Under the pieces are notes generated by a model, which saw nothing but the letters and a program-made list of their open reading frames with translations, was not told the origin of the DNA and ran no database searches. Shown piece after piece: positions 13,034-31,596 of a stretch of 40,390 nt of DNA (positions within the stretch are counted from its first letter, which is position 1; every line of letters begins with the position of its first letter). The stretch comes from an uncultured Caryophanales bacterium (GTDB lineage: Bacteria; Bacillota_I; Bacilli_A; RF39; UBA660): assembly GCA_946410555.1 (NCBI GenBank), contig CAMKAT010000009.1, forward strand, positions 1-40,390. Direction: 5' to 3'. Position numbers and translations under genes: made by a program.

Positions 13034-13630
13034 GTGATTAAGACAAAATTAAAAGTATTAATCGTATTTGTAATTTTTGCTTTTGCTCTATCAATAGTAA
13101 GTAACACTTATTCAAGATATGTTGCTGCTGCTGAAGAAAACATCGATATAGCACTTGCAAATTGGCAAATACTTCTTAATAATGAAGATATTACAAGTTC
13201 TTCTTCATCAGTTGGTTTAATAAATCCTGTTATACTTGAAAATGAAAATGTTGCAAGCAATAAACTTGCTCCTTCTTCAAGAGGATACTTTGATATCGAT
13301 ATAGATGCAAGTTCTGTTGAACTATCATTCAACTATAATATAAAGTTAGATAAAAATGAAATATTAGATGATTTATTTATTACAAAATATCAAATAATTA
13401 AAGATGAAAATGAAGAATCAGATTATATTGATATAGTTAACAATGAAATTAATGGTACAATTAATTACTCTAAAGACGAAATAATTAAACCATTTAAAAT
13501 AAGAGTATTCTTTGAATGGTTCGATGATGAAAACAATAATTCTAATGATGAAAATGATACAGAAATCATTAAGAATAATGAATCTCTAAAGATTAATGCT
13601 AGTATTAAATTTACTCAAAAAATAGAATAA
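13034..13630 (+). CDS. TasA/camelysin-like secreted protein, 198 residues
   Basis: This is the only plus-strand gene of the surface locus. A hydrophobic signal segment (about 6-25) is followed by NTYSRYVAAA, the Y-x-x-Y/F pattern seen at the mature N-terminus of TasA/camelysin-like proteins cleaved by SipW-type peptidases. The body is beta-rich (ALANWQILLN, SSRGYFDIDI) with a long acidic Asn/Asp/Glu linker near the C-terminus. I choose the GTG at 13034 because GAGGTGA lies five bases upstream; the GTG at 13025 is part of that binding site. It runs convergently to the rest of the locus and probably encodes an independently regulated fibre subunit. Confidence 0.75.
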   Translation: MIKTKLKVLIVFVIFAFALSIVSNTYSRYVAAAEENIDIALANWQILLNNEDITSSSSSVGLINPVILENENVASNKLAPSSRGYFDIDIDASSVELSFNYNIKLDKNEILDDLFITKYQIIKDENEESDYIDIVNNEINGTINYSKDEIIKPFKIRVFFEWFDDENNNSNDENDTEIIKNNESLKINASIKFTQKIE

Positions 13631-13654
13631 GTGATTAAATCACTTATTTTTTTA
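13627..13654 (+). terminator. Plus-strand terminator of TasA-like gene
   Basis: AATAAGTGATT/AATCACTTATT arms followed by seven T, overlapping the stop codon. Confidence 0.85.
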
Positions 13655-13660
13655 TCTAAT

Positions 13661-13688
13661 AAAAAAAATCAGACTTTATTAGTCTGAT
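13661..13688 (-). terminator. Minus-strand terminator ending the signal peptidase/AAA+ operon
   Basis: ATCAGACT and AGTCTGAT arms followed by eight T on the minus strand. It sits back to back with the plus-strand terminator, separating two convergent units. Confidence 0.88.
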
Positions 13689-14911
13689 ATTATATTTGAT
13701 TTTTGAGCAATTATTACAGGAATTATATTACATGTAGAATTACTACTTTCACCATATATTTTAGATTTATTATTATCGCTTGTATAAGCGTATCCTGATG
13801 TATTGTTATATTTAGTACTAGTCCATATACAATTATCATTATTAAATAATTTATATTTATTATCATAACTAATATATCCGTTTGTCTTACCTACCTTAGC
13901 AAGTATATTATCCGCTCTAGAACCATATTTTACTGTTCCTAAAATTGCATCAGATATATTAGGAGTCATAATAAGAGTTGAATTAATATCTTTTGATATA
14001 ACTTTTAATATATCTTTAGCTTCAAGTTCACGTACACTTGCATTCCATGAACTAGTACTTTCATCAAGTAAACTCTTATAGTCATTAAATGATCCTTGTA
14101 AATTAAAACTACTTATATCTGGTAAAAGAGATACATTTTTATCCCCGATTAAATTATCAGAATCAATTACATATGTTTTTAAACATGATTCACTTAATGA
14201 ATTACAAATCATATTATTTTTAACATCAAATAACACTTGCTTACCATATTCAAAGTCATAATCATGATCATCAACATCATCAGTTACTTGTTGTGCTGAT
14301 ACATCAAAACCTATTTTGATCGAAGGTTCTTTTATGTAATTAGAATCTTTCTTTTTCTTTTCTTCTTGTTTTTTTTCAAATTGATAAGCTTTAGATCCCC
14401 ACGCACTATCAAGTTTGTCATCCCCAGAGTCAAGTGGCCAAGAAACAGTAACAATAAATTCTGCATCTGTTTCTTTAGCATTAAGTCTTGTTTTACTTAA
14501 AGTTGCATTTATATGAAATGGATAATCATGGGATAATGCATCTTCGATTCTATCACTCGTATAATCATCACTTAAAACATAATAATCTTTGTTGTCATCT
14601 AAAATACGTGCATAATCAATTGTATATTTTAATTTAGCATCAGAGTCTCCTAAATTCTTAATAGTTATTACTTCACTTAATGGTTCCATGCCTGGATAAA
14701 GATCTGATAAAGAAATAACTATATCGTTAGAAACTACTTCGTTATTCTTTTCAAATTCAATATACCAAGCTTTTACACCTACCTCTGTTTTAACATCAAC
14801 AAGCCCACTGTAAGCAAACCACGCAAAACTTACTGATATAAACGAAACAACTGCAAACACTATCGAGACTAAATTCAATTTTAGATAAACTTTATGTCTT
14901 TTCTTAAACAT
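13679..14911 (-). CDS. TasA-like surface protein with extended C-terminal domain, 410 residues
   Basis: An N-terminal anchor (about 13-31) leads into SFAWFAYSG. It is followed by a beta-sandwich segment with LYPGMEPLSEVITIKN, the usual start of TasA-like strands, ending near residue 210. A charged KKQEEKKKKD linker separates parts of it. The C-terminal ~150 residues are a second domain ending TCNIIPVIIAQKSNI, resembling the tail of secreted proteins that end in a 'P-V-I-x-L-K-S' strand. AAAGGGATGA precedes the start. It is the last gene of the operon with the SipW peptidase immediately upstream, so it is a likely peptidase substrate. Confidence 0.75.
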   Translation of the reverse strand: MFKKRHKVYLKLNLVSIVFAVVSFISVSFAWFAYSGLVDVKTEVGVKAWYIEFEKNNEVVSNDIVISLSDLYPGMEPLSEVITIKNLGDSDAKLKYTIDYARILDDNKDYYVLSDDYTSDRIEDALSHDYPFHINATLSKTRLNAKETDAEFIVTVSWPLDSGDDKLDSAWGSKAYQFEKKQEEKKKKDSNYIKEPSIKIGFDVSAQQVTDDVDDHDYDFEYGKQVLFDVKNNMICNSLSESCLKTYVIDSDNLIGDKNVSLLPDISSFNLQGSFNDYKSLLDESTSSWNASVRELEAKDILKVISKDINSTLIMTPNISDAILGTVKYGSRADNILAKVGKTNGYISYDNKYKLFNNDNCIWTSTKYNNTSGYAYTSDNNKSKIYGESSNSTCNIIPVIIAQKSNIISD

Positions 14912-14941
14912 AAAATCATCCCTTTCGTTTATATAAATCTC

Positions 14942-15514
14942 TTACTTATCTTTTCTTTTTTCTTCTTCTTTTTCTATTAATGAATAAATAAATTCAGAAC
15001 CAATTATATATAATAATGGAAGTATAATAAATACGAATAATCCTACATTAGTACCTACCACTTTATATATAAATGATAAACTTTTTACCTTATATTTAAC
15101 TACTCCATATAATTGATTTTCAGATACAACTGGATCTTCAACTAAACAGCTTTCACAAATACCTTTAGTGTGGAAGTAGTATTTACCTGCATCATCTTTT
15201 TCAATATCAATTACTTGATGAGTAACTATTTTACCTTTAACATCTCTTTTTTCTCCAAGGTAACTAACTACATCACCTACTTTTATATCTTTAGGATCTG
15301 TTTCTACTGATATAAGTACATCACCAATTTTATATTTAGGCTCCATACTACCTGATATAACAGTAAATATTCTAAAATTAAATAATGATATTTCATTCTT
15401 ACTAAATTTTTGTAAACATACCATAAAAATAAATAATATAATCATAAGCATAAATATTCCTTTGATTATACCTGCTATTATTCTTACTACTTTATTGTTT
15501 AATATATTTTTCAT
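14942..15514 (-). CDS. SipW-type signal peptidase I
   Basis: The 190-residue protein has a transmembrane helix at about 12-34, the catalytic serine S56 in ISGSMEPKY, H99 in IVTHQ replacing the lysine of ordinary bacterial enzymes, and D127 in the VEDPVV region. A second helix lies near the C-terminus, before a basic KEEEKRKDK tail. The Ser-His arrangement is that of endoplasmic-reticulum/SipW-type peptidases, which in Bacillus mature the fibre protein TasA. The usual GDAN box is altered to KGICESC, with a pair of cysteines. An AGGAGG overlaps the stop codon of the upstream DUF2357 gene, indicating coupling. Confidence 0.92.
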   Translation of the reverse strand: MKNILNNKVVRIIAGIIKGIFMLMIILFIFMVCLQKFSKNEISLFNFRIFTVISGSMEPKYKIGDVLISVETDPKDIKVGDVVSYLGEKRDVKGKIVTHQVIDIEKDDAGKYYFHTKGICESCLVEDPVVSENQLYGVVKYKVKSLSFIYKVVGTNVGLFVFIILPLLYIIGSEFIYSLIEKEEEKRKDK

Positions 15515-15523: not shown

Positions 15524-16657
15524 CTATAGACTTTTATAAGCTTTTTCTAAATAATCGTTAATTTCAGATTTAAATTTTTTCTTAATATCTTCTATTCCTG
15601 CAAGTCTAGATTCTTGTTCAATCTTAACTTGATTTAAAAGAATACTTAATAACTCTTCTTCACTTATGTCTTTACCATTTATTTTAAGTAAATTAAGAAC
15701 TCTTTGAATCATATCTGCAAGAAGAATAATTGAATAGTTATTAATCTTTTCTTTTTCTTCTCTTTTTCTTTTAGATACAGAATCCATTACAAAATAATCT
15801 ATTAAGAATGAATTATCTAAAAGCGATTTTAAAGCATCATTTCCCTCACTTACTAGTGCTTCTTTATCTTTTTCATCTAAATTGAAACCATAATTTCTAA
15901 TATATTCCCACATTTGTACAGATAATTGAAAATTAGGATTTTTAAGAATAATATTAGTAGGTTTAACTGGTGGTTTGATAAATGTAACATGTAGTTTATC
16001 TAATTCTTTAAACATATCACTTTTAAACCAACTGTTAATAAATTCTTTGATAGCTTTAATTCTTTCTAATTGTTTATTGATAAGATTATCTATATTTTTA
16101 TCTTTACTACTGTTATCTTTTTGTTCTGAAGTAATCTTAAGTTCAATATTTATTTTTTCTCCATCTTCGATAGACTCTGCTTTATATTCTAAAGATTTAT
16201 TATTACCTAAGATAATATTTTTAAGTTCGTCTTCTCTTTCGAAGATGAATCTTTGTAAATCATGAATAAAAGTATAAAGAAATCTATTTTCATAAATATT
16301 AAATGTTTCTTCATTTCTTACTTCTAATATTTTAGATGGTCTTATATCTCCAGTTTCTTCATCCATATCATTTATATAATTTGAATGTTTAGCTAAATCT
16401 TTAACACTTTCAGAAGTAATCTTTTTTGCTCTTTCGATAGTTGAGACTACTTCTTCTTTTACAAGTGTTAATTTTGGGTGTCTTACAATTTGATCAATAA
16501 ATGGACAAGCTTCTTCGATTTTATCTAGCCATTCAAAGTTAAGAGAATCACAAGAATTATTCATTGTGTAATACATTTCGGATGTAGTATTCTTAACAAA
16601 AGACTCTTTTCTTTTAACAAGAGAATCATCAATAGAAATTAATTTTTTCTTGCCCAT
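15524..16657 (-). CDS. DUF2357-family partner of McrB-like ATPase, no evident nuclease domain
   Basis: The 377-residue cytosolic helical protein carries NEETFNIYENRFLYTF (about 132-147), the characteristic E-x-F-x-x-x-E-N-R-F motif of DUF2357 proteins, which occur beside McrB-like AAA+ ATPases. The second half is helical with an RKREEKEK segment and ends without a recognisable PD-(D/E)xK nuclease core, unlike McrC-type subunits. It lies 13 bases after the AAA+ gene and 9 bases before a signal peptidase gene. The setting argues against a plain restriction system and for an adaptor or substrate-recognition role at the membrane. That role is inference; the family call rests on the motif and the neighbour. 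Confidence 0.72.
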   Translation of the reverse strand: MGKKKLISIDDSLVKRKESFVKNTTSEMYYTMNNSCDSLNFEWLDKIEEACPFIDQIVRHPKLTLVKEEVVSTIERAKKITSESVKDLAKHSNYINDMDEETGDIRPSKILEVRNEETFNIYENRFLYTFIHDLQRFIFEREDELKNIILGNNKSLEYKAESIEDGEKINIELKITSEQKDNSSKDKNIDNLINKQLERIKAIKEFINSWFKSDMFKELDKLHVTFIKPPVKPTNIILKNPNFQLSVQMWEYIRNYGFNLDEKDKEALVSEGNDALKSLLDNSFLIDYFVMDSVSKRKREEKEKINNYSIILLADMIQRVLNLLKINGKDISEEELLSILLNQVKIEQESRLAGIEDIKKKFKSEINDYLEKAYKSL

Positions 16658-16670: not shown

Positions 16671-18197
16671 CTATAGATTCTTTTTAGTATTTTCTAGGTA
16701 TTCAATACATTCTTTCATTGTACCTTTACCATAGTTTTTATTTAAATAAGAAATAAATGGATCAATTTCATCTCTTAAGAATGAAACACTTAATTGATCA
16801 AATTTTCTTAATATTTTTTTAGCAACAAAATAATCTATTGCTTCAACTTCTTTTCCACCAGTTGCTACATATACTGATGTAAATACGTTTAATTGTTTCA
16901 TAATACGATTACCAAAAGCAATTCTAAAATGTTTAATAATATAATCATCAAGTTCTTTTACTTGTTTTAATCCTTTATCTGATAAAGGATATTTTTCTTT
17001 TGCTTCATCAAATAAAGATTCTAAGTAACTTGCATTAATATCAATTGCTTCTTGTTCTCTACATTTGAAAGGATCTACCTTTATATTAATATCTATTGGC
17101 ATAGCACGGTCATATACCTTATCAGTTACCATGAATGTTGATTCATCGTTATTGATTGTACCTATATACCAAAGGTTACCTGGAAGTCTTAGTTTACCAT
17201 TAACTAACTTTTTAGGATCTTTAGGCCAAGCAGATGGAACTAAATCAACAAGCCACTCATTTCTATCTGGCATTTCTAGAATTGATAAAAGGTCAGCAAA
17301 ATAATATTCAACACGTGCTAAGTTCATTTCATCTAGAATAATTGTATGAACATCATCATCAAAACCTGATGTATATATTTCACCTAAAGCTTTAGTTTCA
17401 TTAAACTTTTTAGTAAATTCATTAACATATCCTAAGAAGTCTGATTTATCTCTCCATGATGGTTCAACTGAAGATACACATGAATCTTGTTTAACAAACT
17501 TACCCCAAGCATATGCAAGAGATGTTTTACCTGTACCAGAGATACCTTGTAAAATAATTAACTTACCACAAGCAAGACCTGCAAAGAATGGTCTTAGAAT
17601 AATTGGATCATAGTATAGTTTTAATTGAGATGCAGCAAAGCATCTGAAGTCTTCAATTAGTCCATCTAAAGTATAATTATTATCATATTTCTTAGGAACA
17701 AAGTTAGCATATTTCTTATCAATCATTGTAAGTTTAGGGAAACGAACATCTGCTGGTCCATCTTCTTCACTTTCTTCTTCGGAAGAAATTGAAGCTTTAC
17801 TCTTATCATCAGGATTAATACCTAATTGACTTACTTTCATAGCCATTAGTTCGTCTTTTTCCTTCATTAGTTTAGCTACTTTATCATTTAAATTTGAAAT
17901 TTCTTCAACAAGATCTTCTTTATTCATTGAACTATAATTTCTAGTAACTTTATTTTTTATCTTACGAATAATTAAAAATACTATTAGTCCTACAAGAAGA
18001 ACAAGTATAAATACTGAAATCCATACCAATACCCATTCACCTTTATTAAAACTACCTTTATATGAATCAATTACTTTGGAATAATCATTTATACTTGCAA
18101 TACGAACCATTCCATTTTTTACACCTTTTAGGATATCTCCTACACCATCAAAAAATATAGAAATAAATTCATAAAAAAATCTGAAAAAAGTGTTCAT
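16671..18197 (-). CDS. Membrane-anchored McrB-like AAA+ ATPase
   Basis: The 508 residues comprise an amphipathic N-terminus, one transmembrane helix at about 54-78, a coiled coil (about 88-120), an acidic linker (about 138-150), and an AAA+ domain from about 170. Walker A is GISGTGKT (218-225) and Walker B is IILDEMN with D289/E290, continuing LARVEYYFADLLS. The sensor-1 region is YIGTINNDES, followed by DKVYDRAMPIDI. These are the marks of the McrB/MoxR-like group that pairs with DUF2357 proteins. The ATPase domain faces the cytosol. The gene starts four bases after the signal peptidase fusion stops (GGGGTG as binding site) and is followed by the DUF2357 gene. A remodelling motor at the inner face of the surface-fibre export site is my inference. 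Confidence 0.88.
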   Translation of the reverse strand: MNTFFRFFYEFISIFFDGVGDILKGVKNGMVRIASINDYSKVIDSYKGSFNKGEWVLVWISVFILVLLVGLIVFLIIRKIKNKVTRNYSSMNKEDLVEEISNLNDKVAKLMKEKDELMAMKVSQLGINPDDKSKASISSEEESEEDGPADVRFPKLTMIDKKYANFVPKKYDNNYTLDGLIEDFRCFAASQLKLYYDPIILRPFFAGLACGKLIILQGISGTGKTSLAYAWGKFVKQDSCVSSVEPSWRDKSDFLGYVNEFTKKFNETKALGEIYTSGFDDDVHTIILDEMNLARVEYYFADLLSILEMPDRNEWLVDLVPSAWPKDPKKLVNGKLRLPGNLWYIGTINNDESTFMVTDKVYDRAMPIDINIKVDPFKCREQEAIDINASYLESLFDEAKEKYPLSDKGLKQVKELDDYIIKHFRIAFGNRIMKQLNVFTSVYVATGGKEVEAIDYFVAKKILRKFDQLSVSFLRDEIDPFISYLNKNYGKGTMKECIEYLENTKKNL

Positions 18198-18200: not shown

Positions 18201-20144
18201 TTATGCACCCCCTGAAACATCAATTAAGTCATTAATATTTTCTTTAATAACATTAATTTCTAAATTATTTTTTAAATTATTTGTTAAATTTAATTCTTTT
18301 TCTTTATTCTTATCTACAAAAACATAATCAATTAATGAAATGCTTGTTTTTTCATTTATTTTTTCATCTTCATCATTTACTAATAAACCAAATCTATATC
18401 CTTGTTTTTTCATTCTTTCAATAGTCTTTTTATTATTAGTAATAGCATCACTCTTATTAATAAGTATTACTCTATTTTTAGCCATTTCATCATTTAACAT
18501 ATTTTCTACTTTGTTTAGTTTATTATTCTTTTTATATAAGCTTTCAGGCATATATAAAAGATAATAATTATTAGTATTACAAGACAATATGTCTTCGGAA
18601 AGTTTACCAAGTAAAATATTAATTGTAACTAATATTTTATCTTCTGCTACTATTCCTTCATCATATGTTTTATCAATTATATAATCGCTATAAATCTTAC
18701 TAAAATTAATATTATGTTTAAGTTTTAAAGCATATACATTTTTCTTAGATGAAAGTTCATTAAACTCTAGTTCAAACGTATTTGTCTTTAGTGAATCAAT
18801 AAGTTTATTAGTAATGCTTTTATAAGTTCTTTCACAAATAAGTAGTTTTTTAACTACTTCAATTAATTCTTTATCGTTTTTATAATAGTTATTTAAATAT
18901 TTAGATATTGTTTCTTTATATTTAACTATTTTTTCTTCTAAAACAAGATCACTTTTAAACATATCTTCAATATACAAAATTGTAGTAAATATATTAGCAA
19001 TATTTTTAACTTTAATTGAATAGAATTTATCATTTCCGTTATAAGATTTAATTAATTTTTCACTACGATTAGTAATTAATTTTTTTAGTCTAGAATTCAT
19101 GTTTCTACCGTCATAGCTTACATCAACATTTCCAACTAAATTATAATATTTACCATCGATATAAATTTTTAATAATTTTGATTTTATAGATTCTTCATTA
19201 GCTTTTTTAAATTTTGTAGTACATAAGATATTTGCAAGTTCGGATATTTCTTCTTCTTTAAAATACATGATTTTCTCTAAAATATTATTAAACTTCTTTT
19301 TACGTTTGTTTAAGTATTTTAATATAGATTCTATATTATTATCTTCATCTACATTTTCAATTTCTTCAGATATTTCTTCAGGAATCTCTTCTTCTGAAGT
19401 ATCTACTATTGTAGGAGGATTTAATTCTTCAGCATCTACAGATATTTTTCTAAATATCATAGTCTTTTCTAAATCTTCTTCATTAACAGATTCAGTATTT
19501 ATATTTGTAGGTTCATTTATCAATTCTTCAGGAATTTGTTTTATTTCAATAGGTTCTTCATCTAAATCAGAAGTATCTTCCTCTTTGATAGAAGTTTCAA
19601 TCTTCATAGGAGTAGAATCTTCAAGTTCTTTTTTATCAACAGAGAATTTCAATATTTTCTTCTTATTAAATAAAGTATGAACTGCAAATGTAGCAATTAT
19701 TAAAGTTAATATAACAAAAGGATTTAAGATTGTTTTTCTAATAATTCCAAATTTGGGCAATACATGTGCTACTTTTCCAACGATTTCATCACTAGTAATT
19801 GCACCATCACGAGTATTATTAGCATCACCCTTAGTAATGTAGTTATTATCTGATTTTTCTACCACTCTATGAGTAATAAAATCATCTTTATTCTTGTAAG
19901 TAATAATATCGTTTACATTTGGATTTTTTTCACTTTTAACAATTATCACATCACTAGGGCTAATCGTAGGTTTCATACTTCCTGTTTTTACTTCAAAAGC
20001 TGAATAGCCAAAAAAAGAGGAATAACTTTTATTAAGAATCTTGATTTGTATACAAGAATATACATTAATAAGAATTATTATTCCTAGGATAACTATTAAA
20101 AAATCTAATAAAATATTGCAAGCTTTTCTTATAGTTGTACTCAT
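18201..20144 (-). CDS. SipW-type signal peptidase fused to a ~490-residue cytosolic region
   Basis: Residues 1-160 form a complete Ser-His signal peptidase: helix at about 10-30, S56 in KTGSMKPTI, H92 in FITHRVVE, a KGDANNTRD box with D107/D113, and a second helix at about 137-158. The polypeptide then continues for about 490 residues (family members are normally under 200). There is an acidic, threonine-rich linker (about 170-270), followed by a helical Lys/Asn-rich region of unknown family with NRVILINKSDA and YRFGLLVNDE segments. The topology puts this part in the cytosol beside the AAA+ ATPase encoded three bases downstream. It may link cleavage to the ATPase or to a cytosolic scaffold. 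Confidence 0.85.
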   Translation of the reverse strand: MSTTIRKACNILLDFLIVILGIIILINVYSCIQIKILNKSYSSFFGYSAFEVKTGSMKPTISPSDVIIVKSEKNPNVNDIITYKNKDDFITHRVVEKSDNNYITKGDANNTRDGAITSDEIVGKVAHVLPKFGIIRKTILNPFVILTLIIATFAVHTLFNKKKILKFSVDKKELEDSTPMKIETSIKEEDTSDLDEEPIEIKQIPEELINEPTNINTESVNEEDLEKTMIFRKISVDAEELNPPTIVDTSEEEIPEEISEEIENVDEDNNIESILKYLNKRKKKFNNILEKIMYFKEEEISELANILCTTKFKKANEESIKSKLLKIYIDGKYYNLVGNVDVSYDGRNMNSRLKKLITNRSEKLIKSYNGNDKFYSIKVKNIANIFTTILYIEDMFKSDLVLEEKIVKYKETISKYLNNYYKNDKELIEVVKKLLICERTYKSITNKLIDSLKTNTFELEFNELSSKKNVYALKLKHNINFSKIYSDYIIDKTYDEGIVAEDKILVTINILLGKLSEDILSCNTNNYYLLYMPESLYKKNNKLNKVENMLNDEMAKNRVILINKSDAITNNKKTIERMKKQGYRFGLLVNDEDEKINEKTSISLIDYVFVDKNKEKELNLTNNLKNNLEINVIKENINDLIDVSGGA

Positions 20145-20232: not shown

Positions 20233-20262
20233 AAAAAAGAATTCTATTTTTTAGAATCCTCT
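20233..20262 (-). terminator. Terminator of the adhesin operon
   Basis: GGATTCTA and TAGAATTC arms followed by seven T on the minus strand, overlapping the 3' end of the signal-peptidase-like gene. Confidence 0.8.
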
Positions 20263-20789
20263 TTTTCTTCGTCTTCACCATATTTAATTTCAATGATTAA
20301 TGCATAAATTTCATATAAGAAAATTATAAATCCTGGAACTAACACTATAAATAAGAATCCCCATTTAGATTCGATGATAGAAAGTATAGATCCATAATCA
20401 TTATATGTTTTAGTAGCTTTACCAATTATAAATTCTTCAGAGAAGGAAGCACCATTTTCAAACGCTACAGCTTTTTCTTTGTCATATTTTTCTCCGACTT
20501 TTCCAATTTCAACTGTTGCTACTCCTTTTGAATTTACTGAATAAGTGAATATTTCATCACCCTTATTAATCATGTCATATCTTGTTTTTTGAACAATTAT
20601 CAAATCACCTTTTTTATAATTTTCATTTGATACTTCTTGTTCAAGAATTATTAGTGATTTATCTCCAAATTCTGTTACACCAAACTTATTAAAGTTTAGT
20701 AGTAAAATTGTCATTACTAATGCGAATATATAAAAGCAAGTTCCAAGAATTCCCATAAGTATATTTTTAATTGTTTTTAATGTCTTCAT
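20244..20789 (-). CDS. Signal-peptidase-like membrane protein lacking catalytic residues
   Basis: The overall plan matches a SipW-type peptidase: N-terminal helix (about 10-30), a beta-rich outer part with KKGDLIIVQK (the 'x-x-G-D-x-V' strand of the family) and an IIGKATKTYNDYG segment like the usual IVGKV region, then a C-terminal helix and acidic tail. However, the expected SGSMxP box reads LIILEQEVSN, and no T-H motif follows, so both catalytic residues appear to be missing. It is probably a pseudo-enzyme that binds substrates or the active peptidases. I choose the ATG at 20789 because AAGGTGG occupies the alternative GTG at 20798. It is the last gene of the adhesin operon. Confidence 0.68.
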   Translation of the reverse strand: MKTLKTIKNILMGILGTCFYIFALVMTILLLNFNKFGVTEFGDKSLIILEQEVSNENYKKGDLIIVQKTRYDMINKGDEIFTYSVNSKGVATVEIGKVGEKYDKEKAVAFENGASFSEEFIIGKATKTYNDYGSILSIIESKWGFLFIVLVPGFIIFLYEIYALIIEIKYGEDEEKEDSKK

Positions 20790-20869
20790 AATTACCACCT
20801 TGTCTATAATTATCCTATACTTATTATTACAAAAATAATGTTATCATAGTTATTTTAAACATGCAATAG

Positions 20870-22153: not shown

Positions 22154-25135
22154 TTACCTTACTACTACCTTTATACTATTTTCACCTATATAAGTATCTT
22201 CATTATATAAAGCAAATTTAAACATATAAGAGTTCTTTTCTACACCATTTTTAAACGAAATTTGATTTTCACCATTTCTTATATTTGCAATAGATTCATT
22301 AATATAGTCGCTTATATTCACTTCAGTATATTCTTGATTAGATCCATTTCTTTCTTTCTTTTTATATAAAGAAACTTTTATATTTGGATTATCAATAGTA
22401 CTATTAATATTAAATTTAAATAGTTCATTTGCATTTATTAATCTCTTATTTACACTTACTCCAAAACTATAATTATTTATTCTTTTATTTATAACAATCG
22501 GAATGTTTATAGAATTATTACTTTGATATTTAATTACGTTATTAAAAGTTAATCCTAAAGTTATTTTTAATGTGCTACTCTCATCTAATAAACCACTTAT
22601 ATCTTCGCTTGTTTTAATTGTTAGAATATCTTTTATATTATTTAAATCATCTAATTTAATGATTGTTTTATTAGAATTATCAGGTGTATATGTTTTGTTT
22701 TTATAAACAAATTTAAGACCTTTATAATTGTCTTTATTAACTACATTATTATTAGAATCTATTACTTCAATAATTAATACTTTATCTAAATCTTCAAGAC
22801 TAGTATTTAAATATTTATTATCAAATGAAGTATTAAAATAAATATTTGTAGTTGATAAAGAATTATATTTTATTAAACTAATGTATCCTGAATTAGTGAC
22901 ATGTAAAATACTATTTATATCATCTGTTAAACTGTTTAGTTTAAAATAAATTGGATCACTTGTTAATTCACCATTATCTTTTTTAGCTTTAAAGTAAATT
23001 GAAAATTCTTTATTAGTTTCTTCAATATTTTTAAAATCAATTATTAGATTAAATTTTTCTTTATTAGAATTTTTATTAGTGTAAAATACATCACTTGATA
23101 ATCCAACTTCTCTAAATTTATTCAATAATATTTCATTATTAGTTGAATCATCTACAAGATATTCATACACTTTGTTTTCACTTAAATCATTTAAAATAAT
23201 ATGAGTATTAATTGGTAAGCTTTCATTACTAACAATACTTCTTGTAAATCCATCTAAAGAGAAATTACTATTATCTAATTCAACATTAAAACTAATAGAT
23301 GAATTATAAGTCATCTCACTATTAAACTTTAAGTTATTACCAGATTTAACATTTGTAAGTTCATATTTCGTATCAATAAAATGATCACTATTTATATATA
23401 TTACATTAGAATTATTATCCTCTACTTTTACATAAACAATCGAGTCATTCATTATATTAACAGACTTCTTATAATTAATCCATGAATTAACATTTTCTAA
23501 TTCATCTAAATTTAGAATATGATTAGTTACAAGATATTCAATACTTTTAATATCATTTTTACTATAAGTTTTTATCTCAAAACTTTTATTCTTTACAAAT
23601 AAGTAATCTGTATCATGTAGATTATCCCAGCTATAATCGTCCACTTGAATTGAAGCATATATATTATCTACATATAAATAAATTCTATCTGTATTTAAGT
23701 AATAAACATCATCATTATAGTTTACTACCTTAGCATATAAAATATATGTTCCTTTATTTTTAAGTCCTATTGGATTTTCATAACTAATCCAGTTGATATT
23801 TTCTAAATCACTTTTAGTTAATTGATCTTCTGATAAATAATAATAGACATCTTTAATTGCTTTATAATCTTTAGTACTTGTTAGAATTAATGATAAATCT
23901 TCATCATAACTAATATAATCAATATCTTCTTTAAAAGTATTCCAATTATTATCCTTTAAAACGATATTTACATATTTCAAATTTTCATAATCAAGTTCAA
24001 TCAAAGGCATATCATCATATATAAAATATTCATTATCAAACATCTCTTTAATAATATCTTCATTATAAGTTAAGAAATCTTCTTGAGAGATTTTATTATA
24101 TGAGTTGGTTATTGAAATGATTGAACTCTCATTTTCACCTAAAGCATAAGTATTATATGAATTATAACTATGATCTATATTAACATTTGAATTAATTATG
24201 TTACTAACTAAACCAGAAGAATCATTATTTAAAATTCCTTCATTATAAACATAACTTAATGATGAAGTAGAAGAATCGATTGTATTTGCTATACCAGATG
24301 AAATATCGCCATTAATATTTCCTATATTATAAGACTTAGAAATATTAGTGTTCTTTATTATTCCTACCAAACCTGAAGCTATTTTATTATTTACATAAGC
24401 TCTATTAACAACATTTTCTATATTTGAATCATTAGCATTAATAATAATACCTGCACTTATTGAATTTTCATCTGAATTTATGTCAGTACCCACACTACTA
24501 AGTATATTTCCTTCAACTACTACATTATTAATTGTTGCTCCATTACTATTAAGAGCTAAGCCTGAAGAATTATATTCGCCATATAAATAAGCATTTTCTA
24601 TTATTAAATTACTAATAGTTCCACCAATGCTATCAAAAAGTGAGCTGTTATCACCTTTAATAAATAAACCATATATTGTGTGATTACCACCATCTAATGT
24701 ACCATTAAATTCACTTAACATTTCGAATTCATTAATACTGCCTACACTTTTTGTAAAAGTGCCATCTTCATAGTATTTATTAGTAGTATTATCTAAATAA
24801 TAAGTTATATCATCTTTAATATATTTTAAATTGTCATCTACTTTAAAGAAACCTCTGTTAAGAATAATATCATTAGTTATTTTAATATACTTATTATCAT
24901 AATCATTCTTTTTTAATGATTCTTTAAAGTACGCAAATTCACTTGCATTTGAAATGATATATGGAGACTCAATTGTACCATTACCAGAATTAAATGAAGA
25001 AGCAATACTTCCATCCCATTCATTAAAAGCATAATTTTTAGAAGTTACTAGTTTAGCTAACGAAGGTATTAAAACACTAATAAAAAGGAAACTACATACT
25101 AATATACTTAATAGAATTAACTTTTTATTTTTCAT
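22154..25135 (-). CDS. Large surface adhesin with GLUG-type beta-helix repeats, 993 residues
   Basis: The start is taken at the ATG at 25135, because the earlier GTG at 25150 lies in the GGGTGAG binding site. A signal anchor (about 6-28) is followed by NEWDGSIASSFNSGNGT and SPYIISNASEFAYF, the usual opening of GLUG-repeat adhesins. There follow repeated GLV/GLA-x-N-x-x-N turns to about 360 (a likely beta-helix), then several Ig-like segments with recurring WxxY/IxYVD strands to the end. It has no LPxTG motif or C-terminal anchor, so attachment would rest on an uncleaved N-terminal helix or on the fibre. It heads its own unit with a palindrome-bearing promoter. Confidence 0.78.
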   Translation of the reverse strand: MKNKKLILLSILVCSFLFISVLIPSLAKLVTSKNYAFNEWDGSIASSFNSGNGTIESPYIISNASEFAYFKESLKKNDYDNKYIKITNDIILNRGFFKVDDNLKYIKDDITYYLDNTTNKYYEDGTFTKSVGSINEFEMLSEFNGTLDGGNHTIYGLFIKGDNSSLFDSIGGTISNLIIENAYLYGEYNSSGLALNSNGATINNVVVEGNILSSVGTDINSDENSISAGIIINANDSNIENVVNRAYVNNKIASGLVGIIKNTNISKSYNIGNINGDISSGIANTIDSSTSSLSYVYNEGILNNDSSGLVSNIINSNVNIDHSYNSYNTYALGENESSIISITNSYNKISQEDFLTYNEDIIKEMFDNEYFIYDDMPLIELDYENLKYVNIVLKDNNWNTFKEDIDYISYDEDLSLILTSTKDYKAIKDVYYYLSEDQLTKSDLENINWISYENPIGLKNKGTYILYAKVVNYNDDVYYLNTDRIYLYVDNIYASIQVDDYSWDNLHDTDYLFVKNKSFEIKTYSKNDIKSIEYLVTNHILNLDELENVNSWINYKKSVNIMNDSIVYVKVEDNNSNVIYINSDHFIDTKYELTNVKSGNNLKFNSEMTYNSSISFNVELDNSNFSLDGFTRSIVSNESLPINTHIILNDLSENKVYEYLVDDSTNNEILLNKFREVGLSSDVFYTNKNSNKEKFNLIIDFKNIEETNKEFSIYFKAKKDNGELTSDPIYFKLNSLTDDINSILHVTNSGYISLIKYNSLSTTNIYFNTSFDNKYLNTSLEDLDKVLIIEVIDSNNNVVNKDNYKGLKFVYKNKTYTPDNSNKTIIKLDDLNNIKDILTIKTSEDISGLLDESSTLKITLGLTFNNVIKYQSNNSINIPIVINKRINNYSFGVSVNKRLINANELFKFNINSTIDNPNIKVSLYKKKERNGSNQEYTEVNISDYINESIANIRNGENQISFKNGVEKNSYMFKFALYNEDTYIGENSIKVVVR

Positions 25136-25157
25136 CGTGCTCTCACCCACTTAGCTG

Positions 25158-25191: not shown

Positions 25192-25213
25192 AAAAAAAAG
25201 GCATTAATTTGCC
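25192..25213 (-). terminator. Terminator of the subunit operon
   Basis: GGCA and TGCC arms followed by eight T on the minus strand, overlapping the stop of the 530-residue gene. The stem is short. Confidence 0.6.
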
Positions 25214-26796
25214 TTCATTTTTTCAATAATTTTATTAGCATTTACTATAAACCAGATTTTCTCAACAGTTGTATCACTTTCATTAATTTTATTAATACGA
25301 GTAATAAGTGATATTTTATTTTTTAAAGCATCTAAGTTGTCTGGAGTTAAATCATCTTCATTAATAAGAATATTATTTAATTTATACTTATTAGCTATAA
25401 TTCTTGGGATGTTATTATCTTCAAAAACTGGTAATCCTTTAACAATTAAGTTCGTAGGATTCTTAGCAAATTCATCATAAATATTACTTTGTTTTATTAC
25501 TTCATTGTAATCATTTAATTCATATACTTTTTGAATAGTTATTTTTTTAAAGTAATCAAAACTTAAAAATAATTCTAGTACATCTGATACTGTCATATTT
25601 GAATTAAGTACAGATAATACTCTAGATTTAAAGAATTCATCATCATATTTTCTATATAGATCTCTAAGTCTTTTAGTAATATTTATAGATTCCATTTTTA
25701 AATTTTTATCTTTATTACCTCTAGAAATCTTAAAATTAATTATAGTAAGAGATGCTTCCTCTTTTTTTATTGAAGTTTGAATATTCTTTAATTCAGATGA
25801 ATTACTATTCTTTTTATCTTTAATATCTTCATATTCTTCTTTAAATGAATCTATTATTGGAAGAATACTTAAATAGCCTTCATATTCTTCTAAGTTAAAA
25901 TATAATTTATTCAAGATACTACATATTGTTTTCATATTTTCTTTATCATTAATATCAACATTTTCAGATAAGAACGATGAATATGCTGACTTTCTAAACT
26001 TTGACGATTCAAGGTATTGAGAGATATCAAATTCTTTATTAACTGCTTTTTCTACGATATCAGACACATCTTCATTATTCAATTTTTCTTTTTCTAAATA
26101 TGCAGATTTTAACTTTTCAATACAAGCACTATATGTTGAAATACCATTTTCTTTAACATATTCTTTCTTAATCTTAGAAATATAAGAATCAAACTTTCTC
26201 ATATTCTTCTTAATAAGCTTACGAAAATTTATTTCTATGTGACTAATTATGTCAGGATTTACCCAATAGATTTCTTCGAATGTAACATTCAAATCATCTT
26301 GAGTTTTTTCCCCTTTTCGTACTTTTAAGAAAACATCCATATATTTATGAACATAATAATTATATTTGAAATTTTTAGAATCAAGTTTAATTCCTGCGGA
26401 AACAAATTTATCAATAAACTCATTAATAAGATTATCTATTGAATCAAAATTAAAAACATAGTAATTACTCATTCTATAAAGTAGATTATCAAATCCCATT
26501 TTCTCATAACTAGTATTAAGAGGATTTAATATATTTCTTCCCTTTTCTAGAATTTCTATTTTTTTATTCACGGAATCAAAATCTTTTTTCACTTCTGGTA
26601 CACTTAAAGCTCTCTTTTTAGCTTTAATATAATTAAATACACTTTCTCTATAAGATGTATATTTATTGACAAACTCATCTATTGAAGAATTATATTTTTT
26701 TATATTTGTTTTTGTTTTAGTAGGTAATGAAGATAAAAATGTTTTTTTAACTTCGACATCATTACTAATAAAATCTAAAAAATTATTCATTTTCAT
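25204..26796 (-). CDS. Unrecognised helical cytosolic protein, 530 residues
   Basis: I do not recognise a family. The protein is almost entirely helical, Lys/Asn/Glu-rich, with no signal peptide or membrane helix. A coiled-coil-like stretch covers about 325-380, and a mixed region near the C-terminus includes LIVKGLPVFEDNNIPRII. Placed between fibre-subunit genes, it is a candidate cytosolic partner of the export apparatus, possibly of the AAA+/DUF2357 pair, but that is only inferred from position. Two starts six bases apart are possible. The gene overlaps the end of the 46-codon gene before it, which implies coupled translation. Confidence 0.7.
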   Translation of the reverse strand: MKMNNFLDFISNDVEVKKTFLSSLPTKTKTNIKKYNSSIDEFVNKYTSYRESVFNYIKAKKRALSVPEVKKDFDSVNKKIEILEKGRNILNPLNTSYEKMGFDNLLYRMSNYYVFNFDSIDNLINEFIDKFVSAGIKLDSKNFKYNYYVHKYMDVFLKVRKGEKTQDDLNVTFEEIYWVNPDIISHIEINFRKLIKKNMRKFDSYISKIKKEYVKENGISTYSACIEKLKSAYLEKEKLNNEDVSDIVEKAVNKEFDISQYLESSKFRKSAYSSFLSENVDINDKENMKTICSILNKLYFNLEEYEGYLSILPIIDSFKEEYEDIKDKKNSNSSELKNIQTSIKKEEASLTIINFKISRGNKDKNLKMESINITKRLRDLYRKYDDEFFKSRVLSVLNSNMTVSDVLELFLSFDYFKKITIQKVYELNDYNEVIKQSNIYDEFAKNPTNLIVKGLPVFEDNNIPRIIANKYKLNNILINEDDLTPDNLDALKNKISLITRINKINESDTTVEKIWFIVNANKIIEKMKAN

Positions 26797-26941: not shown

Positions 26942-28075
26942 TTAATTGAATGCTTGATATCCACTAGTATCCTTAATAAAGTTAATATCAACATATATTT
27001 CAGCACCAGTAGAATCTGTTTCTAAACTGTCTATATCTTGTCCTTCAATCCATAAATAAACACGAGCTTTTGTAATACCATCTGGTATTGTAAATAATGG
27101 TTTATCAAAATCTGTTTCTTTTATAGTTTTTTGGAGAGCAAAATAGTTATAATCAATTTTACTAGAACCAGATATATTATCTTCAACATAAATAGGTCCT
27201 CCAGCATTTATCATTCCATATGTTGGGAACTCTTCATTATCTTTTAAATCTAAATTATATTTAGCTGCTCTTTCTCTAGAAAGCATTGTATGAAATTTAC
27301 TATTAGGTTCATAGATAATTGATTCACAATCATGATTACATTGAATATTTTGAATTGTTTTAGGATCAGAATCTAAAGGAACAGTTCCAACTTTAACAAT
27401 ACCAATTCTTAAAGAATTAACTAGTCCTTGCATTTCATCTCCAGAGTCTGATGTCATATATGCTGTTGTACCATCATCAAAATAAAGACTATCAGGAACT
27501 GGTGAACCAGTTTCATTTTTGAAGAATATATCAAAAGCTATATAGTTATTAAAAGCTCTTGGTTTTGAATCAACAACTTTTGTTGTATTAATAAAACCAT
27601 TTATCTTTTGTTTATTCTTATATCTAACTCCAGCAGATGAATATATATCAAAGAAGTAAGAATTATTATCCTTTATTCCATTTGATGATACAGGTGTAAG
27701 ACCAGATGCTGCCCATTGATTAACATGATTTGGATAGTTTTTTTTTAATCCATTTATCAATGTTTCACGAGATATTTCAATCGTATTATCAAAATTTATT
27801 CCATCAAAAGAAATAGAAAGACCGCTATTCTTTGAAACTATCATATTAAATTCTTTAATCTTAACGTTTAACGATGTAGAAAACCATGCATACGAAGAAA
27901 CTATTAATAAAACACCTATCATAAAAATAACAAAAACAGTTAAATATCTTCGATTTAATAATCTAGTAAATAATGATTCTTGTTTATTATTAACTATTTT
28001 TGAATTTGTTTTCTTTTTAGATTTTTGTTTTTTAATATTTTTTGATGCTCGATTAACTATTTTTTTATTAGTCAT
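26942..28075 (-). CDS. TasA-like fibre subunit paralogue, 377 residues
   Basis: A long Lys/Asn-rich cytosolic tail (about 1-40) and one helix (about 45-63) are followed by SSYAWFSTSLNVKIKEFN, then GLSISFDGINF. Shared landmarks with the next two genes are LTPVSSNG, NYIAFDIFFKN, VNSLRIGIVKVG, a Y/WEPN turn and the near-terminal RVYLWIEGQDID. Two cysteines (CNHDCE) are in the position of the larger paralogues' cysteines. It is separated from the upstream paralogue by a strong hairpin and therefore may be made in smaller amounts. Likely a minor subunit of the same surface fibre. Confidence 0.75.
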   Translation of the reverse strand: MTNKKIVNRASKNIKKQKSKKKTNSKIVNNKQESLFTRLLNRRYLTVFVIFMIGVLLIVSSYAWFSTSLNVKIKEFNMIVSKNSGLSISFDGINFDNTIEISRETLINGLKKNYPNHVNQWAASGLTPVSSNGIKDNNSYFFDIYSSAGVRYKNKQKINGFINTTKVVDSKPRAFNNYIAFDIFFKNETGSPVPDSLYFDDGTTAYMTSDSGDEMQGLVNSLRIGIVKVGTVPLDSDPKTIQNIQCNHDCESIIYEPNSKFHTMLSRERAAKYNLDLKDNEEFPTYGMINAGGPIYVEDNISGSSKIDYNYFALQKTIKETDFDKPLFTIPDGITKARVYLWIEGQDIDSLETDSTGAEIYVDINFIKDTSGYQAFN

Positions 28076-28155: not shown

Positions 28156-29532
28156 TTATCCTTCATTAGTTGATGATTGAGTATCATTTTTTGGAGTGAT
28201 ATCTGTAGATGGTCCTTCATAATGAATGTCATCTTCAGTATATCTTTCCTTAGTGAATCCAAATTTAACTGAGATTTTCTTTCCTAATGATGCAAAATCA
28301 TAGTTATCAATATCTTGACCTTCGATCCAAATGTAAACTCTTACTTTAGTAATACTGTTTGGAGCTAAAGTCATGAATGTTGGTCTAGAAGTACCAGTTA
28401 AGTTCTTCATTGTATCTGTGAAATATGGGAAATCTACTAATTTGTAATCTCCACGAGCAGCTAATTTAGCAGATTCAGCAGATTTAGCTGATTCACTATC
28501 TAAAGTTTGTTTTAATGCAGTTTCATTTAAGTTAACAGCGTTATTATAAGCATTGTATGCAGCACTGTTAGCTAAATAAGTATTATATTGTTCACCATCA
28601 TAGATGTCTACATTATCATCAATACCAATTACTCTACTAATAGCATAAGTTTTATTACTTGTACCATCAGCAACTCCACTACATTTATCTGCATTATAAG
28701 ATGATGATAATGTTAAGTTTGTACCATCTTCTTTTCTAGTATTACAACTTGTTTCATACCAGTTAATAGCATTTTGTACGTGGTTAGTATCATTTGGTTC
28801 CCAAATTTGAGCTTGACGACAAATTCCTGTTACTTGAGCTTGGTCAGCACCAGCAGCTACATTTGTACAAGTAATGTCAGTAATATTATTTGTAGATGCA
28901 ACACCAGGAGTAGCTTCTACTCTACCAATTTGAGCAAAACCAACTCTTACTGAGTTTTCAATACCAGTTCCAGCAACACCACCGTTTGTTGAAACTTTAA
29001 CTTCTGAGTTAGTTGTTAAGAAGATATCTTCTTCATTTAACACATTATTTTCAGTATAGTATTCATTTCCTGAAAGGTTTTTAATAAATAAGTCAAATGC
29101 AACATATCCGTCACCTTCAATGAATCCTTTTTTACCTTCTGCAGTTTTATCATAATTGTGTACACGACTAGCAAGTAATCTATATCCACCTTTAGTAGTA
29201 GCTAAACTACCTTTTTCATACATTTGTAATCTTGAAACAGTAGAATCAATATCACCAACAGTAGAAACAGGAATAAGACCATTATCAGCCCATGTATTAG
29301 TATTTCCATTGTATGGAGTAGCATTCTTTGCATCTAATTCGTAAGACCAATTCTCACCATCCATAGATAAGAATAAACCTTCAGTTGTAGCAATTTCTAC
29401 ATCGAATGATGATACATTAACAGTTTTCATACCAACAAACCATGCGTATGTTCCAACACCAATTAAAATAGAGCAAAGAAAGCAAATAACAATTAGATTT
29501 CTAATTTTTCTATTTTTTCTGTTATTATTCAT
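28156..29532 (-). CDS. TasA-like major subunit paralogue B, 458 residues
   Basis: GAAAGGAAAA before the ATG at 29532 fixes the start; an earlier ATG at 29559 falls inside the upstream hairpin. One helix (about 8-27) precedes TYAWFVGMKTVNVSSFD. The sequence then parallels its upstream paralogue closely: GLFLSMDG, GLIPVSTVG, GYVAFDLFIKNLSG, GGVAGTGIENSVRVGFAQIG, WEPND and RVYIWIEGQDIDNYDF. A variable, Ala-rich segment of about 60 residues lies before LVDFPYFTDT. The conserved parts probably form the beta-sandwich core of a polymerising subunit, and the variable part a surface loop. Confidence 0.8.
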   Translation of the reverse strand: MNNNRKNRKIRNLIVICFLCSILIGVGTYAWFVGMKTVNVSSFDVEIATTEGLFLSMDGENWSYELDAKNATPYNGNTNTWADNGLIPVSTVGDIDSTVSRLQMYEKGSLATTKGGYRLLASRVHNYDKTAEGKKGFIEGDGYVAFDLFIKNLSGNEYYTENNVLNEEDIFLTTNSEVKVSTNGGVAGTGIENSVRVGFAQIGRVEATPGVASTNNITDITCTNVAAGADQAQVTGICRQAQIWEPNDTNHVQNAINWYETSCNTRKEDGTNLTLSSSYNADKCSGVADGTSNKTYAISRVIGIDDNVDIYDGEQYNTYLANSAAYNAYNNAVNLNETALKQTLDSESAKSAESAKLAARGDYKLVDFPYFTDTMKNLTGTSRPTFMTLAPNSITKVRVYIWIEGQDIDNYDFASLGKKISVKFGFTKERYTEDDIHYEGPSTDITPKNDTQSSTNEG

Positions 29533-29557
29533 AATTTTTTCCTTTCTTGGTTTAATC

Positions 29558-29584
29558 ATGCAAGAGTAATAAATACTCTTGCAT
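29558..29584 (-). other. Intercistronic hairpin between the two major subunit genes
   Basis: ATGCAAGAGTA and TACTCTTGCAT form a perfect 11-bp stem with a five-base loop, followed by no T run. It mirrors the hairpin at 28101-28126 in place and form, but the stem sequences differ. Confidence 0.75.
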
Positions 29585-29602
29585 ATTAAACATTATTTTT
29601 TA

Positions 29603-30883
29603 TTACTCACCATCATTTTCTTTTTTAGTATATTGGTAAGCTGGATGATTTTCTTTAACTACATCTGATGGAAGATCAGCACCTTCTGGATTTTCATAGT
29701 CAAAGTCTTCATCATAGAATCTTTCTTTAGATAGACCAAATGCTACAGATATTTTCTTTCCTAATGATGCAAAATCATAGTTGTCAACATCTTGTCCTTC
29801 AATCCAAATATAAACTCTTACTTTAGTAATACTGTTTGGAGCTAAAGTAACAAATGTTGGACGATTAACGCCTGTTAATGATTTTTCAGTATCAGTGAAA
29901 TAATCGTAAGCAAATAATTTACCTGCTTGAGCTGTATCAGAGATACTAGCTGTATAACCATTGTAGTCAGAACCATCGTATACATCTACTTGGTCACTGT
30001 AATCAATAACACCACCGATAGCGTTAGTTTGTACATAAAGTCCATCAGTTAATGTATTACAAGCACCACCATATGAAGCTGCTTGTGTTAAATCAGCACC
30101 ACTTCTTAACTTACAAGAAGTTGAATACCAATTGATTGCATTTTGTACATGATATTTATCATTTGGTTCCCAAATTTGTGCAGGACGATTAGCACAAATT
30201 CCAGTAACTTTTGAATCAGAACTACATGTGATTCCAGTAATTACTGATTGAGTTGTTTCAGTAGCCTCTACTCTACCGATTTGAGCAAAACCAACTCTTA
30301 CTGAGTTTTCAATACCAGTTCCAGCAACTCCACCGTTTGTTGAAACTTTAACTGCTGAATCAGGAGATAAATAAATTGGTTCCTCATTTAATACGTTTAA
30401 GTCTTTATAATATTCTTTACCTGAAAGGTTTTTAACGAATAAATCAAAAGCAACGTATCCGTCTTGTTCAGGTTGGCCTTCAGCTGTATTTTGAACTTGA
30501 CTAGCCATAATTCTATAACCACCTGGTGTAGTAGCAAAACTTCCCTTTTCATACATGATCATTCTAGAAGCATCTGTATCAATTACACCTACAGATGAAA
30601 CTGGAACTAATCCGCTTCCACCCCAGCTGTTTGTATTATTAGATGTGTTTACTTCTTTGAAGTTTTCTTGGTTAATAGAAACTGTATCTGACCAAGTAAC
30701 ACCATCTAATGATAATGATAAGCCATCGATTGCCGCAATTTGTACATCGAAGCTTGAAACATTAACTGTTTTCATACCAACGAACCATGCGTATGATCCT
30801 GTGATTAAAATTAATGCCATAATTGTGCATATAAAAAATAGACGTCTAGTTTTTCTAATATGCATGCTGTGTTTCTTTTTCAT
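29603..30883 (-). CDS. TasA-like major subunit paralogue A, 426 residues
   Basis: A basic N-terminus with one helix (about 13-32) is followed by SYAWFVGMKTVNVSSFD, then GLSLSLDGVTW. Most landmarks are shared with the downstream paralogue, including GGVAGTGIENSVRVGFAQIG and RVYIWIEGQDVDNYDF, showing a tandem duplication. Paired cysteines (ITCSSD, GICANR, TSCKLR, GGACNT) may form disulfides outside the cell. AGAGGA precedes the ATG, 14 bases after the previous stop. As the second gene behind the strongest promoter of the locus, it is the best candidate for the main structural subunit. The TasA-like call rests on pattern and context. Confidence 0.8.
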   Translation of the reverse strand: MKKKHSMHIRKTRRLFFICTIMALILITGSYAWFVGMKTVNVSSFDVQIAAIDGLSLSLDGVTWSDTVSINQENFKEVNTSNNTNSWGGSGLVPVSSVGVIDTDASRMIMYEKGSFATTPGGYRIMASQVQNTAEGQPEQDGYVAFDLFVKNLSGKEYYKDLNVLNEEPIYLSPDSAVKVSTNGGVAGTGIENSVRVGFAQIGRVEATETTQSVITGITCSSDSKVTGICANRPAQIWEPNDKYHVQNAINWYSTSCKLRSGADLTQAASYGGACNTLTDGLYVQTNAIGGVIDYSDQVDVYDGSDYNGYTASISDTAQAGKLFAYDYFTDTEKSLTGVNRPTFVTLAPNSITKVRVYIWIEGQDVDNYDFASLGKKISVAFGLSKERFYDEDFDYENPEGADLPSDVVKENHPAYQYTKKENDGE

Positions 30884-30897
30884 GTTTAATCCTCTTT

Positions 30898-31596
30898 CTA
30901 AATCTCTGTATGTTCTGAAACAAAATTCATTGAAATTTTGATTTCACCACCCAAAATGTTATCATTACATTCTGGATCTGAACCCTCAATCCATAAAACT
31001 ATTGTATACTTGTCAACATCTCCGGGGTTAAAATCAGTTTTATGATCAACCGTAATTACACCATCCTTAGCAAACGGAGTAGTTTCTTTCTCAGGTGTGT
31101 TTTTTGCAGATAGTTTAGCATAAGTTACAAATTCAGAGTTTTTATAGACGCGAATTCTTACTGCCTCATCCACTTGCTTAATAACGTCATCAATTACTAT
31201 TTCGCTGTAGTAATCTACTACTTGATTTCCTGTATTTTCAACAAAGAAAGTATAAGCTAAATAGTTTTTGCCGTTATGCGAGCCACCATTGCTTTCATCA
31301 ATATCTTCGGGAAGCCATTTGTATGATATATTGTCAAAAGACTCAGGTGACTTGGCATATAACTCAGACCTAAACACTTTATAGTTAGGATCATCATAAA
31401 TGATTACTCCTTGCTCATAATAAAGGTTATCATCTAGAGATATGCAGAAGCTTTCATTATTATAAATAATACCAAATACAAAATATGAAAGTATAAGCAC
31501 AAAAAAAATGGACAACAAGAGAAGTTTCACTATTTTGTTGGTTTTCTTTTGATGTTTGTATCTTTTAATAGTTGAAGTTATTCTCTTGTCATCCAT
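30898..31596 (-). CDS. First gene of the subunit operon: anchored TasA-like protein, 232 residues
   Basis: A cytosolic basic tail (about 1-22) and one helix (about 23-45) are followed by a beta-rich outer domain with LAYTFFVENTG, EAVRIRVYKN and, near the end, YTIVLWIEGSDPECND. The last matches the RVYxWIEGQDxD landmark of the three larger subunits, so it belongs to the same family but is shorter and lacks the YAWF motif. Base use is visibly less AT-rich than in its neighbours, suggesting stronger constraint or a different history. It may be the fibre base or initiator, being promoter-proximal. AAGGAAG precedes the ATG. Confidence 0.72.
   Translation of the reverse strand: MDDKRITSTIKRYKHQKKTNKIVKLLLLSIFFVLILSYFVFGIIYNNESFCISLDDNLYYEQGVIIYDDPNYKVFRSELYAKSPESFDNISYKWLPEDIDESNGGSHNGKNYLAYTFFVENTGNQVVDYYSEIVIDDVIKQVDEAVRIRVYKNSEFVTYAKLSAKNTPEKETTPFAKDGVITVDHKTDFNPGDVDKYTIVLWIEGSDPECNDNILGGEIKISMNFVSEHTEI

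Follow-up and report, generated by a model that had tools for sequence, protein, structure and literature searches.

Results

Layout and limits of the conserved block

The window, that is, the whole stretch of 40,390 nucleotides that we analyzed, comes from a genome of 1.36 Mb; its closest matches are "Bacilli bacterium" assemblies, the best of them from goat rumen. It contains a block of genes located between positions 13025 and 31596, whose features are given below (TM, transmembrane helix; hhalign values are from profile-profile comparisons with proteins of the PF12389, or TasA/camelysin, type).

13025..13630, plus strand: nT, convergent, likely minor subunit of the TasA/camelysin type, motif YSRY (hhalign 95%, 92 columns)
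13668..13688, no strand assigned: terminator-like hairpin, bidirectional, where the genes c410 and nT converge
13679..14911, minus strand: c410, likely TasA-like surface subunit, motif FAWF, last gene of the operon (hhalign 95%, 76 columns)
14942..15514, minus strand: SPa, SipW-type signal peptidase, Ser56/His99 (TIGR02228, 75.8 bits, above cut-off)
15524..16657, minus strand: McrC-like DUF2357 protein of 377 residues (PF09823, 2.7e-12)
16671..18197, minus strand: AAA, McrB-type AAA+ NTPase (motifs and profile match to McrB structures)
18201..20144, minus strand: SPf, SipW-type signal peptidase (residues 1 to ~160, Ser56/His92) plus predicted EAL-fold domain (TIGR02228, 70 bits, cut-off 51.85)
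18204..19331, minus strand: residues 272-647 of SPf, helical part and degenerate EAL-fold domain (AlphaFold model, Foldseek)
20244..20798, minus strand: SPd, SipW-like pseudo-peptidase (NF046067, E 1.3e-4)
20870..21613, minus strand: n247, likely TasA-like minor subunit, motif FSKY (hhalign 89%, 61 columns)
21624..22148, minus strand: n174, likely minor subunit of the TasA/camelysin type, motif YSLY (hhalign to PF12389-matching proteins 96%, 68 columns)
22154..25150, minus strand: ADH, secreted or anchored surface protein of 998 residues, putative adhesin (TM 11-29; relatives in 30 other loci)
25197..25216, minus strand: terminator-like hairpin with T run at the end of the pilin unit, after c530
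25204..26796, minus strand: c530, soluble protein of 530 residues (no TM; relatives in 25 other loci)
26942..28075, minus strand: Y377, pilin-like, YAWF (beta-rich model)
28156..29559, minus strand: Y467, pilin-like, GTYAWF (paralogue of Y426, 56% identity)
29603..30883, minus strand: Y426, pilin-like, GSYAWF (motif)
30898..31596, minus strand: T232, anchored surface protein without a YAWF motif (TM 26-44)
31680..31708, minus strand: sigma-70-like promoter TTGACA-17-TATAAT, 84 nt upstream of T232, the first gene of the block (12/12, a consensus match only)

Every gene listed in a previous sequence-only reading of this DNA was found again at its place in the window, and nT indeed lies on the plus strand, facing c410 on the minus strand. 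The start of the locus needs correction, since its first gene, on the plus strand, begins at 13025 and not at 13034. The proposed division of the minus-strand genes into three units fits the terminator-like sites after c530 and c410 and the 12/12 promoter match before T232, but the third boundary consists only of a gap of 99 nt. No RNA families were detected with Rfam.

Relatives of each of the genes in the block are present in 26 to 76 of 87 related loci, whereas the genes on either side have relatives in at most six of the 87. The edges of conservation thus coincide with the block edges at 13025 and 31596, which shows that the block is a real unit, far beyond chance. Elsewhere in the window, two adjacent genes (6317-8848 and 8879-11398) encode GH5 cellulase proteins that contain leucine-rich/DUF285 repeats as well as a weak dockerin-like segment. 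Another gene (32637-35246) encodes a secreted protein of 869 residues; its segment GDVTGDGSISLSDVSLMYNHY is dockerin-like, its C-terminal half resembles a beta-helix, and it matched no Pfam family above its cut-off.

A membrane-anchored McrB-type protein and its DUF2357 partner

The AAA sequence on its own did not retrieve any family, and a profile built from 30 AAA relatives matched the McrB structures 6hz4, 6ut6 and 7vsr (E 4.8e-6 to 9e-6) and nothing besides. The Walker A (GISGTGKT), Walker B (LDEMN) and NND motifs are invariant. Residues N349-N350-D351, invariant in 30 relatives, correspond to the NxD and not the NxxD form, and the NxD form has been used to distinguish a branch of the McrB GTPases (PMC11090510). 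The protein also matches the PADLOC candidate PDC-M26A at 1.3e-36, and in Pfam searches FtsL was matched, weakly (E 0.006), by only one of the 30 family members. The membrane anchor ascribed to this protein is borne out by one strong transmembrane helix at residues 59-77, followed by a charged helical stretch; because the C-terminal flank of the helix is positively charged, the AAA domain should be cytosolic. The apparatus had also been called ATP-dependent, for which we find no warrant: the motor is of the McrB type, and McrB of Escherichia coli is a GTPase. "NTP-dependent" is therefore the better wording.

The DUF2357 assignment of the 377-residue protein is confirmed by its Pfam match. DUF2357, which corresponds to the N-domain of McrC, was detected in 24 of 25 relatives, and it was the only domain detected; no PD-(D/E)xK nuclease domain was found among them. 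In the clostridial relatives DUF2357 is followed by a long coiled coil, which the protein of the window does not have. The two genes are tightly linked: the DUF2357 gene is the next gene after AAA, on the same strand, in 72 of 73 cases, with a median gap of 13 nt, and the AAA and McrC distances are correlated (Mantel r 0.95, 0/999 permutations).

Signal peptidases and an EAL-fold component

The description of two Ser-His peptidases accompanied by a dead copy holds across homologues. In the case of SPa, the serine is kept in 59/59 and the histidine in 58/59 homologues, and in the case of SPf both are kept in 46/47. SPd, on the other hand, fails both the TIGR02228 cut-off and the Ser/His dyad; the catalytic serine is lost in 40/42 and the histidine in 42/42 of its homologues, so that it constitutes a conserved pseudo-peptidase.

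What had gone unnoticed is that the tail of SPf is, according to its predicted structure, an EAL-fold domain. The tail sequence belongs to no family that we could find, and it had no Pfam match, PF00563 (EAL) included. The AlphaFold model of its 376 residues (pLDDT 83, pTM 0.83) gave top Foldseek matches that are all EAL domains, the degenerate FimX among them (E down to 1.2e-4, probability 1.00). An acidic linker joins the domain to the peptidase part, whose two transmembrane helices (8-26 and 132-150) indicate that the tail faces the cytosol.

An EAL component recurs at related loci. Five clostridial loci have a separate EAL-domain protein encoded just upstream of T232, and the four clostridial proteins that we scanned match PF00563 at 1e-44 to 1e-49. 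In other families of the class, EAL or GGDEF-EAL proteins adjoin the module. EAL matches were found 29 times among 387 near genes and not once among 70 far genes. Only half of the class-wide loci, 17 of 34, have an EAL gene close to the block. Alignment shows that the EAL catalytic residues look intact in the other families, are partly lost in the clostridial proteins and are largely lost in the protein of L195. We infer from this a series from enzyme through structural adaptor to peptidase fusion. In the window, the fold is degenerate, and hence there is no sign of enzymatic activity.

Nearly all genomes encode a GGDEF protein of ~680 residues; we considered it as GdpP and dropped this assignment, as its GGDEF motif is degenerate (DGNEF) and it has no DHH domain. 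Separately, positions 657-1352 of L149 encode a small protein whose GGDEF motif (RDGGDEF) is intact, so c-di-GMP may be made in that genome.

Surface proteins and candidate fiber subunits

A single N-terminal hydrophobic helix is present in eight proteins of the block, as had been stated, and seven of these eight carry a motif of the type T/S-[YF]-[AS]-x-[FY] (YSRY in nT, FAWF in c410, FSKY in n247, YSLY in n174, and YAWF in Y377, Y467 and Y426). The exception is T232, which has no such motif. The T232 family has anchored, motif-less members in Clostridia, and the cleavage motif is absent from every relative that we aligned. T232 is therefore better read as a membrane-retained protein and a candidate for the base of a fiber.

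The PF12389 profile matches nothing in this genome and is too narrow for these subunits. The profile-profile likeness of nT, n174, n247 and c410 to PF12389-type proteins extends beyond the signal region, which makes the term "TasA-like" a likely one for these four minor subunits; relatives of nT occur in about 49 other loci. The alignment of the major pilins with PF12389-type proteins is confined to the signal region, and for them the term is unproven. Y377, a more distant paralogue of Y426 and Y467, is the most widely conserved of the YAWF pilin-like proteins. Among 350,542 PDB chains, the best Foldseek match of its model is the TasA fiber 8aur, and the match is weak (E 0.01, probability 0.35). 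A match to 8uzp was discounted, since this is a designed helical protein, and sequence searches of the PDB with the pilin, McrC-like and SPf tail profiles yielded nothing useful.

T232, c530 and the SPf tail show no profile-profile relation to PF12389-type proteins. The cytosolic nature proposed for c530 agrees with its lack of a transmembrane helix. The protein travels with the pilin genes, and we found neither a family for it nor a profile-profile link to other proteins of the block. ADH had been called a GLUG-type adhesin, a label that we could not confirm, as the protein matched no Pfam family. In one locus (L062, G076 C10), six pilin genes of the Y426/Y467 type lie in tandem, one of them with an in-frame stop, and one pilin copy in genome G077 also contains stops; these could reflect either pilin variation or assembly error.

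Synteny and co-occurrence

Among the 97 genomes of the order, 27 have the AAA gene, 23 a YAWF pilin and 22 both (22 both, 5 AAA only, 1 pilin only, 69 neither; p 5e-16); two weak AAA matches, with E values of 5.6e-4 and 1.3e-5, were left out of this count. SipW-type peptidases by themselves were dropped as a marker, because their presence in 93/97 genomes makes them uninformative for co-occurrence. A signal peptidase gene lies at most three genes from the AAA gene in 70 of 76 cases. We also compiled a class-wide set of 34 loci with a full-length AAA, taking as neighbors the genes within six genes. A signal peptidase, the DUF2357 gene and a YAWF-type pilin are each present in 32 of these 34 loci, and a relative of T232 in 28. 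Within the order, the core order is peptidase-AAA-DUF2357-peptidase-c410-nT; Clostridia, and several further families of the class, have T232-pilin-peptidase-AAA-DUF2357-peptidase.

The association that the sequence-only reading had suggested looking for is thus present. Nor does the pair reside mainly among nucleases or defense genes, an arrangement that the same reading had taken as the mark of accidental adjacency: in a sample of 100 unlabelled neighbors, no PADLOC family had more than three matches and no Pfam family more than two, and many were housekeeping genes. Synteny and co-occurrence strongly support the functional link that had been proposed between the AAA+/DUF2357 pair and the SipW/TasA-like genes.

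The pair also occurs in other settings. A sister group (L093-L098 and L100) has neither pilin nor peptidase; its loci do encode a protein resembling the EAL tail, along with a surface protein that is anchored in the membrane and has DxDGDG repeats. Two further loci (L225, L228) have the pair without peptidase or pilin, preceded by genes for proteins of ~450 and >2300 residues. A second group of AAA proteins, of about 610 residues, is encoded behind the gene for a SipW-like protein of 348 residues (L208-L211). The neighboring proteins in L209 and L210, the only two of these loci that were read, have N-termini that look TasA-like by eye, and an apparent ABC transporter is encoded directly downstream. 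Finally, in L212 and L213 tandem AAA genes surround the DUF2357 gene and there are no peptidases, which is possibly a defense branch.

Discussion

The sequence-only reading supposed that this apparatus had not been described. However, its core has a name: CoCoPALM designates McrB GTPases of the NxD type that carry a fused FtsB-like membrane/coiled-coil part and are located beside signal peptidases with a presumed role in assembling pili (Bell et al., eLife 2024, PMC11090510). The block shares with CoCoPALM the putative NxD McrB-type GTPase with an N-terminal membrane helix and helical stretch, the McrC-like DUF2357 partner and the adjacent signal peptidase genes. The CoCoPALM McrC homologue "usually" has a coiled coil, which the 377-residue protein lacks; given the word "usually", this does not exclude membership. 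The main text of that paper devotes one paragraph to CoCoPALM and announces a later paper, and we found no such follow-up in the open-access literature. The AAA/DUF2357 pair with signal peptidases is therefore already known. As far as the searchable, open-access literature goes, the steady pilin/TasA-like partners, the anchored T232, the conserved pseudo-peptidase and the recurrent EAL component are new; none of these four features appears in the main text on CoCoPALM, and the block has all of them.

Other known systems share parts of the block. The Bacillus tapA-sipW-tasA and Clostridium perfringens sipW-bsaA operons likewise combine a dedicated SipW-type peptidase with secreted, single-helix fiber precursors, but they contain no AAA+, DUF2357 or EAL component, and PF12389 matches nothing in the present genome. 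McrBC type IV restriction systems have the same McrB-type AAA+ and McrC DUF2357 domains, whereas in the block no PD-(D/E)xK nuclease or DNA-binding domain was detected, the motor is membrane-anchored and the partners are different. The degenerate EAL proteins FimX and YdiV use an EAL fold without phosphodiesterase activity, as the SPf tail probably does, and FimX acts in pilus biogenesis in Pseudomonas. The SPf tail differs from both in being fused to a signal peptidase, in lying next to an McrB-type motor and in being too divergent for Pfam.

Taking the gene content together, the block probably encodes a CoCoPALM-type system in which a membrane-anchored, nuclease-less McrBC motor serves the making, through maturation or assembly, of TasA-like fibers. 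In such a system, insertion of the pilin precursors by Sec would leave the N-terminal helix of each in the membrane. Subunits of the McrB-type protein would form a ring at the inner face of the membrane, held by their single helices, with the DUF2357 protein in the ring stimulating hydrolysis as McrC does. The EAL-fold tail would dock the peptidase to this ring, and docking would couple precursor cleavage (at T-[YF]-[AS], then x) to the motor. Cleavage would free the N-terminal strand of the subunit for polymerization by donor-strand exchange, the process by which TasA assembles (PMC9674648), and T232, which would stay in the membrane without being cut, would serve as anchor or first acceptor. 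Instead of pulling like a piston, the motor would gate subunit release or set its order, and SPd may hold precursors uncut. We infer the ring, the coupling through the EAL tail, the motor-gated cleavage and the donor-strand assembly on anchored T232 alike. The fullest version of this scheme is an as yet uncharacterized class of energy-driven assembly machines in Gram-positive bacteria: a McrBC motor, domesticated and devoid of a nuclease, would be physically linked to a SipW-type peptidase through an EAL-fold adaptor that descends from a c-di-GMP phosphodiesterase. Assembly would then be motor-powered and, ancestrally, under c-di-GMP control. We put this version forward tentatively and consider it less likely than not. 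Several results count against the scheme as a whole: the TasA fold of the major pilins has weak support, the sister group as well as L225 and L228 have the AAA/DUF2357 pair without pilin or peptidase, and half of the class-wide loci show no EAL gene near the block.

SipW is required for export and polymerization of BsaA (PMC7395162), and no motor is known for the donor-strand assembly of TasA-type fibers (PMC9674648). As TasA and BsaA fibers in Bacillus and C. perfringens need no such motor, it may do something else, for instance regulation. The motor and the EAL-fold tail might then constitute a GTPase switch that senses surface contact or the making of fibers and that regulates expression or the cell envelope, assembly itself being unpowered as for TasA. 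A second, regulatory role reported for B. subtilis SipW (as cited in PMC13082335) would fit such a switch, as would the EAL and GGDEF-EAL proteins that several families encode next to the module. Yet the EAL fold of the window is degenerate, without sign of enzymatic activity, and the constant members include no transcription factor or kinase, and we regard this explanation as unlikely.

It is also conceivable that the AAA/DUF2357 pair is a defense device, such as a type IV restriction derivative of the CoCoNuT kind, that watches the envelope, the pilins being sensors or baits and the fiber genes being guarded. The McrB/McrC ancestry, the PDC-M26A match and the close kinship to published CoCoNuT systems (PMC11090510) all speak for this reading. 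We consider it improbable: no nuclease domain was detected in the McrC-like protein, the sampled neighbors include many housekeeping genes and no recurrent defense gene, and the constant partners are dedicated peptidases and several secreted substrates; moreover, AAA and DUF2357 appear to diverge together smoothly, without the rapid turnover typical of defense genes. Finally, an accidental neighborhood of a mobile McrBC-like pair and a fiber locus, for which the sister group carrying the pair without pilins might be cited, is already contradicted by the AAA/pilin co-occurrence, the class-wide presence of peptidase and pilin, the fixed gene order and the short gaps, and is almost certainly wrong.

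Previously, TasA-type fibers were believed to require no more than secretion, cleavage and passive assembly by donor-strand exchange. A conserved, restriction-derived motor beside fiber genes in many gut Bacilli and Clostridia would add a powered, signal-linked route of assembly, and would show a restriction system turned to envelope work. The EAL component grades from intact through degenerate to fused across loci, and the named but unexplored CoCoPALM class gains likely substrates and a testable third component. Our results suggest that surface fibers are built, in some Gram-positive bacteria, by a machine that is dedicated to this task and driven by nucleotides.
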